Made by a program: the position numbers and the translations under genes
Shown here: one piece after another, positions 2,204 through 61,905 of the stretch
Position numbering within the stretch: the stretch's first letter is position 1
Layout: each line of letters begins with the position of its first letter
Origin: an uncultured Bacteroidia bacterium
GTDB lineage: Bacteria; Bacteroidota; Bacteroidia; Bacteroidales; UBA932
Assembly (NCBI GenBank): GCA_902782225.1
Contig: CACZMF010000005.1
Location: 62,001 to 126,000 of the forward strand
Direction: 5' to 3'
DNA length: 64,000 nucleotides
Notes under the pieces: generated by a model
The model's input: the letters and a program-made list of their open reading frames with translations, nothing else
What the model was told of the DNA's origin: nothing
Databases searched by the model: none

Positions 2204-2276
2204 CTGGATGTGGCGCAGTTGGTAGCGCACCTGGTTAGGGACCAGGAGGTCGCTGGTTCAAGTCCAGTCATCCAGA
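2204..2276 (+). tRNA. tRNA-Pro, anticodon AGG as read
   Basis: A 73-nt cloverleaf: perfect 7-bp acceptor stem (CTGGATG/CATCCAG) with C1:G72 and discriminator A73 as in bacterial tRNA-Pro, D stem GCGC/GCGC, anticodon stem CCTGG/CCAGG with loop TTAGGGA, T arm with TTCAAGT. The anticodon is AGG with G37. No CCA is encoded. A34 in tRNA-Pro is unusual for bacteria, where TGG, GGG and CGG are usual. It is followed at once by a terminator and a G-rich repeat. Confidence 0.93.
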
Positions 2277-2318
2277 CACGAGGAGCCGTATGGCTCCTTT
2301 TTTTGTGTCTGGATGACT
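2266..2318. repeat. Inverted repeat: tRNA 3' end and its mirror copy
   Basis: The 14 bases 2266-2279 (end of the tRNA plus three bases) recur as an exact reverse complement at 2305-2318, bracketing the terminator hairpin. A read-through transcript could fold the tRNA 3' strand into a long hairpin. The same arrangement is seen beside the other tRNA-Pro at 61.8 kb. Confidence 0.85.
2281..2304 (+). terminator. Intrinsic terminator of tRNA-Pro(AGG)
   Basis: Stem AGGAGCC / GGCTCCT with a GTAT loop followed by a T tract, starting 4 bases after the tRNA. It is nested inside a larger inverted repeat (2266-2279 with 2305-2318) that includes the 3' end of the tRNA. Confidence 0.85.
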
Positions 2319-2374
2319 ACTACTATCCCCCTGCACCCCCAGGGGACGGGGGGCGTTCCCCCGACACCCCCTGA
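2319..2374 (+). repeat. Dispersed G/C-rich repeat, copy 1 of 3
   Basis: Begins ACTACTATCCCCCTGCACCC and continues with runs of G, then C, ending near CCCCCTGA. Close relatives lie at 52664-52720 (minus) and 61742-61786 (minus). The G and C runs can pair (GGGGGGCGTTCCCCC) and could also form quadruplex structures. It follows directly on the mirror copy of the tRNA end. No ORF is credible here. Confidence 0.8.
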
Positions 2375-33479: not shown

Positions 33480-33688
33480 TTCTAAGTCTAGTTGCCGACC
33501 AATAAATGTCATGGATTGGTTTGATAATATAGATGTGAACGAGAATAAGGACTATGGTAAGAAACTTGTATCCGTTCTGCTTAAATAAGCGTTCAAGGTC
33601 AGTTTTTAGCTTGGGGACCTTGAACGCCAATTTATATTTTGTCGGACGCTTACTCCATAAGACACAGGTAAAACCCTCCAATTTGCTA
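33480..33688. other. Gap after the surface lipoprotein
   Basis: AT-rich. A 25-codon open frame (33512-33589, MDWFDNIDVNENKDYGKK start) may be a gene remnant; it ends on the first bases of the CAAGGTC palindrome. The 85-bp repeat follows. Nothing else supported. Confidence 0.45.
33589..33627. repeat. CAAGGTC palindrome family, copy 1
   Basis: Perfect 12-bp stem GCGTTCAAGGTC / GACCTTGAACGC with a 15-base loop (AGTTTTTAGCTTGGG). A near-identical hairpin in the opposite orientation is at 46515-46553, and two related ones at 44518-44552 and 46442-46476. It may act as the terminator of the surface lipoprotein gene. Confidence 0.8.
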
Positions 33689-44466: not shown

Positions 44467-44517
44467 ATAAGTCCAGCCAGGAACGGTTGGTATCTATATG
44501 CATTTCGACCATCTGGT

Positions 44518-44552
44518 GGGCAAGGTCTGATTTCAGGTTGGAGACCTTGCCC
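44518..44552. repeat. CAAGGTC palindrome family, copy 2
   Basis: 10-bp stem GGGCAAGGTC / GACCTTGCCC, 15-base loop (TGATTTCAGGTTGGA). Followed at once by a second hairpin GCCCAT/ATGGGC. Confidence 0.8.
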
Positions 44553-44568
44553 ATAAGAATGGGCCTTG

Positions 44569-46354: not shown

Positions 46355-46441
46355 ATAAGTCCAGCCAGGAACGGTTGGTATCTAAAAAATCTATGACCTT
46401 CCGGAAGTCACTCCAGAGGTTCAGCATTTCGACTGTCTGGT

Positions 46442-46476
46442 GGGCAAGGTCTGATTTCAGCCTAGGGACCTTGCCC
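46442..46476. repeat. CAAGGTC palindrome family, copy 3
   Basis: 10-bp stem GGGCAAGGTC / GACCTTGCCC with loop TGATTTCAGCCTAGG; closest to copy 2. Confidence 0.8.
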
Positions 46477-46514
46477 ATAAGAATGGGCCTACAGAAGCCT
46501 GAGAATGCATATTA

Positions 46515-46553
46515 GCGTTCAAGGTCCCCAAGCCAAAAAAGGACCTTGAACGC
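46515..46553. repeat. CAAGGTC palindrome family, copy 4
   Basis: 13-bp stem GCGTTCAAGGTCC / GGACCTTGAACGC; its reverse complement is nearly identical to copy 1 at 33589-33627, loop included. Lies 34 bases after the stop of the GIN adhesin gene (minus strand) and could terminate it. Confidence 0.8.
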
Positions 46554-46586
46554 TGATTAAAGAGCGGGGGCGAAGATTGGGCCTTT

Positions 46587-52588: not shown

Positions 52589-52663
52589 TATACAACAAAT
52601 TATTCTTGGAGCAGATGGTTTGGATGTGTTAAGCAGAAGACCGTCTTTCGGGCGCAGCCCGAT

Positions 52664-52720
52664 TCAGGGGGTTTCGGGGGGAACGCCCCCCGTCCCTTGG
52701 GGGTGCAGGGGGATAATAGT
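52664..52720 (-). repeat. Dispersed G/C-rich repeat, copy 2 of 3
   Basis: On the minus strand it starts ACTATTATCCCCCTGCACCC and continues AAGGGACGGGGGGCGTTCCC, CCCGAAACCCCCTGA, close to copy 1 at 2319-2374. It follows directly on a palindrome formed by the end of the FAD oxidoreductase gene. Confidence 0.8.
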
Positions 52721-52757
52721 ATCAAGCTGAAGACCGTTCATCGGTCTTCAGCTTGAT
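52721..52757. repeat. Palindrome at the end of the FAD oxidoreductase gene
   Basis: 16-bp perfect arms (CGGTCTTCAGCTTGAT at 52742-52757 and its reverse complement at 52721-52736) with a 5-base loop that contains part of the stop codon. As in copies 1 and 3, the G-rich repeat begins right where the mirror copy of the upstream sequence ends. No T tract. Confidence 0.85.
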
Positions 52758-54576
52758 GCCCAGTTCTGTCAACTTGGTGATAGAACTGGGTATAGGGCAC
52801 GTCGGTGCGGCCGGCACCCTTCTTCATCAGGGCCACAAGATCGGCGAAGTTGGTCTTGTAGATGTCGCGGGGCAGGAGCTTCTTTGCCACGCAAATGCTG
52901 GCGGCGAGACCCACCACTTCGCCCATCATGGCGCAGGTGCGCATCACGCGCACCGAGCCCAGGGCTATGTGGGTGACGCTGATGTCGCGGCCGGCCATGA
53001 ACATATTGGGCACATCGGCGCTGTAGAAGCAGCGGTACGGCAGGGCGTACGGGTCGATGGGGGTGAGCTTGCCTATCGACATCCACTCGGCACCGGGATA
53101 CTTGCCGGCGTTGCGCGGATCGGGATAGTGCTGGTCGATGCGCCAGGTGGTGGTGCAGGTGCCGTCTTCATAGGGGATGGGGCGGGTGAGGTCCTGTTCG
53201 CGCAGGATGAGGTCTCCCACTATGCGGCGGCTTTCGCGCTTGCCGCTGACGTGCGAGACCCAGGTCAGGTGCGTGCACTCCCAGTCCTCCTTCTTGGCAA
53301 GGCGGTTCTTGCAATAGGAGAAGGTGCTGTAGGCCACGTACATACCGTAGTCACGTATCTTCTCGGCATCGGCTATCTGGTCGTCGTTCATGCCCACTTC
53401 CCAGTACCAGTTGGCGCGATGGACGGGCTCCACGGTCTCCTCGTCGAGTTTCAGGCCCCAGTCGAGGCTGTCCGGGAAGCTGCAGGGGGTGTTCCAGTCT
53501 TCGCAGTACCATTCGATGCTCACGCCCATCGTGTAGCCGTCGGCCTTTTCGGGCGCAAGGCTCTCGCCGAATTCCTCGCGGGCCTCGCGTCCCATCATCG
53601 TGCGGGCACCCGCCATCACGGCAAGATGGGCGTCGCCGGTGCAGTCGGAGAACACGTAGCCGCCTATGCGGATGCGGTCCTGCCTGGTGGCCTCGACGGC
53701 TTCCACTGCGGCGATCCTGCCGTCCTTCATCTCCACCTTGTCCACGGTGTAGCCGGCGAAAAGCGTGATGTTGGGCTCGGCCGCGATGACGTCCCACTTC
53801 TTCCAGTCCTGGTAGTGGTGGGCACCGCGGGCGTTGCCGTATCGGTCGGGGCCTATTTCGTTAAGTATGTAGCCCAGAGACGGATAGGGAGGCATATTGA
53901 TCTGGCCTCCAAGGCCGACGCGCACCTCGGAGCTGTTGTTGCCGCCGAGGATATAGCGGTCCTGGATCAGGGCCACGCGGGAGCCGTTGCGGGCGGCGGC
54001 GATGGCTGCGCAGAGGCCGGACATTCCCGCCCCCACGATGACGAAGTCAAAGTCGCCCTTGTCCACCACCGGCTCGGGCAGAAGCTCGGTCCGGAGAGCC
54101 TTGTAGGCTTCGACCCCGGCGCCGGGAGCCTCGCCGGAAGTGGTCAGGAGAACCGCGTCGCAGCGGCCGTCCAGGCCGGTGAGGTCGTGGATGGAGAGTT
54201 CGTGCTCCCCTGCCTTGAGCTCGTATTCACCGCCCTTCTGCCAGTACCACGCTGCGCGCTCGGGACGTGTAGCCCCCGGGCAACCGGTGCCGAACTCGGC
54301 AGGATCGGCCTTGCCGTCCAGGCAGACCTGGAAAATGCCGGGGGTCTTGCCCTCGGACCAGAAAGCCGTCCAGTTCTTAGTGCGGACCCAAAGGGTGTAG
54401 CGGCCGTCTTTTTCGATGTTTATGCGGGTCGAGGGATCGTTTTTCAGGGGCTCGCCCAGGCCGTGGGCAAGGAGATAGCTGGATCCCATTTGCAGCACAA
54501 ACTGCTGCTCCACGGTCCAGTCGCCCAGCGAATCGAAACGCGTGGCGAGGACCATCAGAGAATTTGTTTTATCCAT
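52738..54576 (-). CDS. FAD-dependent oxidoreductase with N-terminal beta-rich domain
   Basis: 612 residues without a clear signal peptide. About 1-165 is a beta-sandwich like golvesin or carbohydrate-binding domains (GRYTLWVRTKNW, ELKAGEHELSIHDL). The rest is an FAD-dependent oxidoreductase of the PF12831 type: FVIVGAGMSGLCAAIAAARNGSRV (Rossmann GxGxxG, split by charge), GGNNSSEVRVGLGG, FSDCTGDAHLAVMAG and ALGSVRVMRTCAMMGEVVG. Such enzymes occur in sugar-degradation loci of this phylum; the substrate is unknown. The last codons lie in a palindrome. Confidence 0.85.
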   Translation of the reverse strand: MDKTNSLMVLATRFDSLGDWTVEQQFVLQMGSSYLLAHGLGEPLKNDPSTRINIEKDGRYTLWVRTKNWTAFWSEGKTPGIFQVCLDGKADPAEFGTGCPGATRPERAAWYWQKGGEYELKAGEHELSIHDLTGLDGRCDAVLLTTSGEAPGAGVEAYKALRTELLPEPVVDKGDFDFVIVGAGMSGLCAAIAAARNGSRVALIQDRYILGGNNSSEVRVGLGGQINMPPYPSLGYILNEIGPDRYGNARGAHHYQDWKKWDVIAAEPNITLFAGYTVDKVEMKDGRIAAVEAVEATRQDRIRIGGYVFSDCTGDAHLAVMAGARTMMGREAREEFGESLAPEKADGYTMGVSIEWYCEDWNTPCSFPDSLDWGLKLDEETVEPVHRANWYWEVGMNDDQIADAEKIRDYGMYVAYSTFSYCKNRLAKKEDWECTHLTWVSHVSGKRESRRIVGDLILREQDLTRPIPYEDGTCTTTWRIDQHYPDPRNAGKYPGAEWMSIGKLTPIDPYALPYRCFYSADVPNMFMAGRDISVTHIALGSVRVMRTCAMMGEVVGLAASICVAKKLLPRDIYKTNFADLVALMKKGAGRTDVPYTQFYHQVDRTGHQAEDR

Positions 54577-61741: not shown

Positions 61742-61786
61742 GTGGGGACCGCCCCTCAGTCCCCTGGGGGTGCAGGGGGATAGTAG
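61742..61786 (-). repeat. Dispersed G/C-rich repeat, copy 3 of 3
   Basis: On the minus strand CTACTATCCCCCTGCACCCC, then CAGGGGACTGAGGGGCGGTC. The first 30 bases match copy 1 exactly; the rest is diverged. It sits 6 bases beyond the mirror copy of the tRNA-Pro(CGG) 3' end. Confidence 0.8.
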
Positions 61787-61792
61787 CCGGGT

Positions 61793-61838
61793 ATCCCGAC
61801 AAAAAGAGCACTCAATTGAGTGCTCTTTTTGTCGGGAT
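61793..61838. terminator. 46-bp perfect palindrome: terminator of tRNA-Pro(CGG) including its 3' end
   Basis: ATCCCGACAAAAAGAGCACT and its continuation form 23-bp perfect arms. The inner part (AAAAAGAGCACTCAA/TTGAGTGCTCTTTTT) is a terminator with T tracts on both strands; the outer 8 bases on the tRNA side are the 3' end of the tRNA and on the other side its mirror copy. Confidence 0.85.
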
Positions 61839-61905
61839 GATCCGACTCGAACGGACGACCCCCACGTCCCGAACGTGGTACGCTAGCCAACTGCGCTACA
61901 TCCCG
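61832..61905 (-). tRNA. tRNA-Pro(CGG)
   Basis: 74-nt cloverleaf on the minus strand: acceptor CGGGATG/CATCCCG with C1:G72 and A73, anticodon stem CCACG/CGTGG, loop TTCGGGA (CGG, G37), T loop TTCGAGT. No encoded CCA. Overlaps the outer arm of the palindromic terminator. Confidence 0.96.

Follow-up and report, generated by a model that had tools for sequence, protein, structure and literature searches.

The window analysed here, a stretch of 64,000 nucleotides (G000:C5:62001-126000) from a genome of 2.58 Mb in 34 contigs, contains three copies of a short, C-rich and structured repeat, which we call element E and which consists of CTAYTAT-CCCCCTGCACCCCC-AGGGGA together with covarying hairpins. 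A first-pass annotation of this DNA had reported three copies, and all of them were found, an 18-mer of the element giving three exact matches in the window and four at up to three mismatches, far above the mean of 0.04 in shuffled sequence. The hosts that it had named were likewise recovered, as genes for tRNA-Pro(AGG) and tRNA-Pro(CGG) (ARAGORN) and for an FAD-dependent oxidoreductase (Pfam PF12831). The features of the three loci are as follows.

2204..2277, plus strand: tRNA-Pro(AGG), host of copy 1 (ARAGORN)
2266..2279, plus strand: 5' arm of the copy 1 hairpin, the tRNA 3' end plus two bases (14 nt, perfect)
2281..2304, plus strand: loop of this hairpin, with terminator stem and T-run (read from the sequence)
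2305..2318, plus strand: 3' arm of copy 1, an inverted copy (mirror) of the tRNA 3' end (loop 25)
2320..2374, plus strand: E copy 1, tag CTACTAT at 2320-2326, then the C-rich body (3' limit approximate)
52738..54576, minus strand: FAD-dependent oxidoreductase, host of copy 2, its C-terminus ending in FYHQVDRTGHQAEDR before the stop (Pfam PF12831)
52742..52757, minus strand: 5' arm of the copy 2 hairpin, coding, at the gene 3' end (16 nt, perfect)
52721..52736, minus strand: 3' arm of copy 2, the inverted gene 3' end (loop 5, containing the gene's TGA stop)
52664..52719, minus strand: E copy 2, tag CTATTAT, then the C-rich body (3' limit approximate)
52631..52644, minus strand: second copy of the mirror arm, 3' of E copy 2, with one mismatch (ACGGTCTTCTGCTT)
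61831..61905, minus strand: tRNA-Pro(CGG), host of copy 3 (tRNA gene search)
61816..61838, minus strand: 5' arm of the copy 3 hairpin, 8 nt of the tRNA plus downstream sequence (23 nt, perfect)
61793..61815, minus strand: 3' arm (mirror) of copy 3 (loop 0)
61788..61798, minus strand: possible second small fold-back CGGGATACCCG in the interval from mirror to E (read from the sequence)
61742..61786, minus strand: E copy 3, tag CTACTAT, then the C-rich body (3' limit approximate)

The annotation had placed the mirror directly before the element in every copy; the perfect arms of 14, 16 and 23 nt are present, and at copy 3 six bases intervene. Ten perfect hairpins with stems of at least 11 nt occur in the window, and three of the five with stems of at least 14 nt are those of the E copies. 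A separate hairpin repeat family with AAGGTC...GACCTT stems, which lacks E, lies at 33589-33627, 44517-44553, 46441-46477 and 46514-46554.

In the copies read, the conserved part of E spans roughly 50-90 nt, and aligning 26 selected long copies gave two covarying stems, with 18 predicted pairs of which 9 were changed on both sides. No terminal inverted repeats were apparent when the alignment was inspected by eye. Direct repeats of varying length flank a minority of copies (for example G023:C6:99393, G027:C1:74424 and G006:C27:46141), with duplications of 36 and 38 bp among them. The window's genome holds 13 exact copies of the 16-base core ATCCCCCTGCACCCCC. A covariance model with strict filters detected E in 14 of 41 genomes of the genus, at up to 18 copies each, and a pattern search allowing one mismatch detected it in 11 of 61 genomes including the window's own, all of the same genus, and in none of 24 order-level relatives. 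Named records with E, among the matches listed, are mostly metagenome-assembled genomes of Bacteroidales, many of them titled as rumen samples; one 17-mer match among those listed is to a Candidatus Cryptobacteroides record and lies at a contig end, so that the E body would fall outside the sequence. The genus may be Cryptobacteroides. Also among the matches listed are six loci of Helicobacter MIT 00-7814 with exact 17-mer matches (L152, L156, L186, L191, L227 and L238), and at L156 the 17-mer is flanked by a different hairpin, GCAGGGGG...CCCCCTGC. Three tandem E units with a 70-bp spacing occur in L038 at about 1430-1660 (G033:C8:65331-65471, minus strand), where the inner units carry a GACGACG...CGTCGTC hairpin.

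To evaluate the association between E and the mirror arms, we used a collection of 164 copies, which never included copies too close to contig ends. Removal of those with less than 120 nt upstream or more than 93% alike left 135 Bacteroidales copies and 23 from other taxa, the latter group being assigned from record titles and including three Bacteroidaceae/Prevotellaceae records (L127, L228 and L233) without an E body. The tag ahead of CCCCC is CTACTAT in 48 of the 135 copies and CTATTAT in 28. A perfect inverted arm of at least 12 nt ending within 30 nt of E was found in 56/135 copies, compared with 8/957 random positions of the loci (957 of 1000 kept, positions near a C-rich core being skipped), 0/675 composition shuffles and 0/23 of the 17-mer matches in other taxa; for arms of at least 8 nt the corresponding counts were 92/135, 62/957, 13/675 and 2/23. 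Host-derived arms are thus statistically tied to E, and the case that the annotation had named against such a link, that most copies lack arms, fails. Its proposal of a dispersed, copied element linked to a snap-back palindrome drawn from differing host sequences is supported. The 43/135 copies without a perfect 8-nt arm indicate that the hairpin is not obligatory, or that it decays.

E and its arm are linked most strongly where E lies at a tRNA or gene end, and less so within open frames: arms of at least 12 nt accompany 23/38 copies at tRNAs, 12/19 at same-strand gene ends, 4/8 where gene ends lie on both strands, 0/3 at opposite gene ends, 12/46 in open reading frames and 5/21 unclassified copies. 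Among the 92 copies with arms of at least 8 nt, 49 have a hairpin loop of at most 6 nt and none has the E tag within the loop. An inverted host copy beyond E was noted by eye at G011:C65, G004:C74 and G027:C6; some such copies look like E nested in another repeat.

Comparison with relatives, whose gene or tRNA ends are without the mirror arm, identifies this arm as the added copy at the level of sequence. The 3' end of the oxidoreductase gene was compared with seven relatives' loci, of which four align to within 7 nt of the stop; around these four stops there is no E, and perfect inverted repeats reach 5-6 nt at most, compared with 16 nt at the window's stop. Among 22 tRNA-Pro(AGG) ends (the window's own and 21 relatives, one locus ending 39 nt on), the mirror is absent from most; L253 has a mirror followed by another C-rich sequence, and L242 a 10-nt mirror and no C-rich sequence. 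In ten putative empty-site comparisons made by eye, the hairpin and E are jointly missing in some (e.g. L198/L187 and L224/L271), and several are too diverged for the joint to be placed. One comparison, L058 with L141, shows host-like bases (AATCCATC) between hairpin and E, and the fold-back may therefore be separate from insertion. Between window copy 3 and L203 the host arm has three differences, each matched in the mirror, and one of these changes interrupts the T-run (TTTTT to TTTCT); among the pairs shown, L060/L083 is a counter-example to matched arms, with a difference on one arm only.

Arms that follow the host were also found within coding DNA. With tRNA cases excluded, 46 of the 135 copies (50 before exclusion) lie in stop-to-stop frames of at least 60 codons on each side, and seven of eight E-bearing open reading frames scanned against Pfam and NCBIfam match known families. 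The YgiQ match forms one stretch (156-739) spanning E at residue 361, and the MiaA, PrmC and GltA frames with E score above curated cut-offs; in DnaX, from the window's own genome, E lies beyond the conserved domains, in a GH92 frame the match stops 6 residues before E, and in a GH3 frame E falls between domains. An 807-codon frame with two in-frame E copies (L008:596-3016, minus strand) gave no Pfam or NCBIfam match at 1e-5. Several E inserts are therefore in frame within real genes (dnaX, ygiQ, miaA, gltA and prmC). In truA, at about 3858 in L192 and about 6004 (reverse) in L201, the start of the gene is present a second time after E, over about 60 bp, and this second copy continues into an open truA frame.

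The ygiQ insertion spot was compared across 33 loci, with a segment of 51 aa in 9 and of 74-137 aa in 14, the motif having failed in 10; four of the 14 longer segments hold E and the rest other inserts. Five records have E at this one spot; pairing extends to 70 of their 80 cells, and only L216 is perfect. The arms of these five records have a covariation of 0.212, compared with 0.069 in shuffles (0/500) and no more than 0.075 under sliding; four pairs were changed on both sides, a number that 26/500 shuffles reach, and seven cells were changed on both sides against 2.3 in shuffles. The ygiQ arms follow each species' own codons. The shared site may reflect either one old insertion later re-templated or several insertions at a hotspot. 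In other species (L320-L324, L332, L341, L344, L346 and L347) the same spot carries a different palindromic repeat in frame, in which GGCC-rich flanks surround GGGCCCCTCCC or its complement, and the L346 copy of it lies between long inverted arms.

From these comparisons we infer a template-switch mechanism, its timing and the mobility of E. In our reading, to which we assign a probability of about 0.5, E is a REP/RPE-like selfish repeat, and the hairpin next to it is produced by fold-back template switching with host DNA as the template, perhaps when E inserts. E would be a selfish repeat, small, structured and apparently non-coding, that belongs to one genus-level group of Bacteroidales and spreads by some route, and beside it the host sequence just upstream would be copied as its reverse complement through snap-back (intrastrand) template switching. 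The 3' end of the nascent strand would anneal to itself at a short inverted seed already present in the host, such as a terminator stem or a few bases like CCG...CGG in ygiQ, after which roughly 8-24 nt would be copied backwards before synthesis continued towards E. The timing that we favour is the insertion event, the fold-back then being part of the joining of E to its target, and some arms would have been re-templated or extended afterwards. Inserts would survive where they are tolerated, namely behind the 3' ends of tRNAs and genes, in frame in proteins and beside a duplicated gene start. Snap-back template switching would explain the long perfect arms, the short loops, the host specificity and the matching changes; E loci carry its mark, a reverse-complement copy of adjacent sequence that is absent from relatives, and the lack of the E tag in all 92 loops supports a coupling to insertion. 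Evidence against this reading comes from the copies without an arm, the weaker link inside open frames, the spacers between arm and E, the mirrors that occur without E, the host-like bases of L058, the one-sided difference of L060/L083 and the direct duplications present at some flanks instead. No within-species insertion of E, insertion intermediate or mobilising enzyme was seen in the data examined.

A more specific form of this proposal, which we regard as tentative and less likely than not, is that E represents a class of mobile repeats that bring no outer hairpin with them, but make one at each new site from target DNA by snap-back copying during insertion and afterwards keep it matched to the host sequence as that evolves. 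The trait of a host-built hairpin seems common to at least one other C-rich repeat of the genus, of the GTTACCCC type, and is perhaps found in the GGGCCCCTCCC type as well. Were this form true, site-built outer hairpins would constitute a host-templated mode of transposition. In many copies of E the arm taken from the host seems to preserve a legible record of a joining or copying event, which makes mechanisms testable from sequence. Hairpins in the coding DNA of ygiQ, with arms that track host codons, bear on the creation and upkeep of stems without selection for structure, and the pattern of hairpins may reveal how repeats of this sort become established within and next to genes.

A possible alternative is that E inserts in an ordinary manner and that its G-rich template strand and hairpins subsequently stall replication, the stalled nascent strand snapping back repeatedly and leaving hairpins on the upstream side of E. 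What makes this rival serious is the distance between the arm and CCCCC, which is at most 8 nt in only 33 of the 92 copies; a spacer or second hairpin separates the arm from E in the remaining 59. It would also accommodate the stacking of a second small hairpin, such as GGGGCTGAAGCCCC after the tRNA-His mirror in L067, the host-like bases of L058, and arms that match the local host in ygiQ and in L004/L203. The empty loops speak against it, since the tag would have been copied before a fork came to a halt at the G-run, and a single old event followed by drift could account for the site shared by L136 and L140 (the latter being the place of L082).

Selection could instead have built the hairpin beside E by ordinary point mutation, for a role as terminator or in protection of mRNA 3' ends, and the distribution of E around tRNA genes bears on this reading. 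Within 180 nt of a tRNA, E was found downstream on the same strand at 39/119 loci, never downstream on the opposite strand and never upstream on either strand (39/0/0/0), the loci having been partly chosen for holding E so that 39/119 is not a genomic frequency; this sole orientation leaves room for a preference for 3' ends. Gene-end copies show a similar bias, with 19 on the same strand only, 3 on the opposite strand only and 8 on both, and the hairpin-bearing stretches have stable predicted folds (z of -6.05 to -8.92). These observations would suit selection, but arms of 12-24 nt match the tRNA or codons exactly, in some cases within open reading frames, and pairing is retained in copy 3 despite the broken T-run, a mirrored difference that favours templating over selection of a terminator. 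We consider selection unlikely as the origin of the hairpin.

The first-pass annotation had also suggested that E targets terminator hairpins, in the manner of group IIC introns, and the position of E after the terminator at those 39 tRNAs, on the same strand only, is what such targeting would produce. A mirror of at least 12 nt (including at least 5 nt of the tRNA) was present at 25/39 tRNAs with E, compared with 4/79 without E, in 118 distinct tRNAs. Since 75 of 79 E-less tRNAs thus lack the mirror, the oxidoreductase ends of the four relatives contain no inverted repeat longer than 6 nt, and 46/135 copies lie inside long open frames away from terminators, the suggestion does not stand as worded, and we rejected pre-existing hairpins as the target of E, a reading that we now hold to be highly improbable. 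Three of the four E-less tRNAs with a mirror (L253, L297 and L120) are followed by another C-rich sequence and L098 by none; mirrors without E were noted at tRNA-Val in L098 (19 nt, 5 within the tRNA) and at tRNA-Pro in L242 (10 nt). An artefact of assembly or amplification, which the apparent origin of the titled Bacteroidales E records as metagenome assemblies (by title, among the matches listed) might suggest, is scarcely credible given that E occurs in assemblies of several projects among those matches, that point differences distinguish records with a common site (L136/L140 and L049/L231) and that inserts keep the reading frame in recognisable genes.

By analogy, E would combine the workings of a REP/RPE-type repeat with mutagenesis by template switching. 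REPs and REPINs are described in the cited sections as GTAG- or CGTC-tagged palindromes, mostly downstream of coding regions and sometimes inside genes, including those of tRNA pseudouridine synthases (PMC3733652, PMC3116915), and the mode of REPIN spread is given there as not settled (PMC3116915). As far as these sections describe them, they resemble E as short palindromic repeats, and the reverse strand of E often has GTAG ahead of a hairpin, the tag reading ATAGTAG in 48/135 copies and ATAATAG in 28/135. Unlike in GTAG-type REPs, the tag-side stem of E is not conserved; it differs at each site and matches the local host. Y1_Tnp matches, taken as RAYT on the basis of frame length, occur in 31 of 41 genomes, with and without E, and 20 Y1-transposase loci, which covered only one of the six matches in the window's genome, contained no E core. 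Rickettsia palindromic elements are reported in the sections cited as selfish palindromic repeats lying in frame in protein genes (PMC10969869, PMC3733652), as do 46/135 E copies; they belong to a different phylum, and host-copied arms are unmentioned in those sections.

Template switching can create perfect stems in one step (PMC8794818), and template-switch or quasipalindrome mutations have been found in RNA genes and in yeast coding DNA (PMC8794818, PMC8604942). The accounts cited share with E the copying of neighbouring sequence as its reverse complement, the one-step perfect stems and the homogenised arms, whereas the E case recurs beside one repeat family. Group IIC introns are described in the part cited as inserting immediately after rho-independent terminators (PMC8919778), a position that E shares; unlike them, E has a conserved part of roughly 50-90 nt and no Rfam intron match, a scan of 16 E loci at the gathering score having returned tRNA matches only. 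The coding palindromes of Nematomorpha mitochondria are, in the passages cited, inverted repeats kept within working protein genes (PMC6649704), as are those of E; theirs encode conserved protein on both arms, whereas one arm of E's is an added copy. Host-copied arms beside a bacterial repeat were not recognised among the entries listed by the literature searches.

The competing hairpin that the annotation envisaged in read-through RNA may influence maturation of the two tRNAs. In the predicted minimum-free-energy fold of tRNA plus trailer, the tRNA 3' end is sequestered, which would concern read-through RNA only; at both tRNA copies of the window a T-run precedes the part of the mirror complementary to the tRNA, so that a normally terminated transcript would be without the mirror. 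A search for the second C-rich repeat, of the form GTTACCCC(A/T)CCCC..., found three copies in five genomes, too few for statistics. Among the four loci at which this repeat was observed (L349, L350, L351 and L297), it follows a tRNA in three and runs into a GTCG-hairpin-CTCC module resembling that of E.
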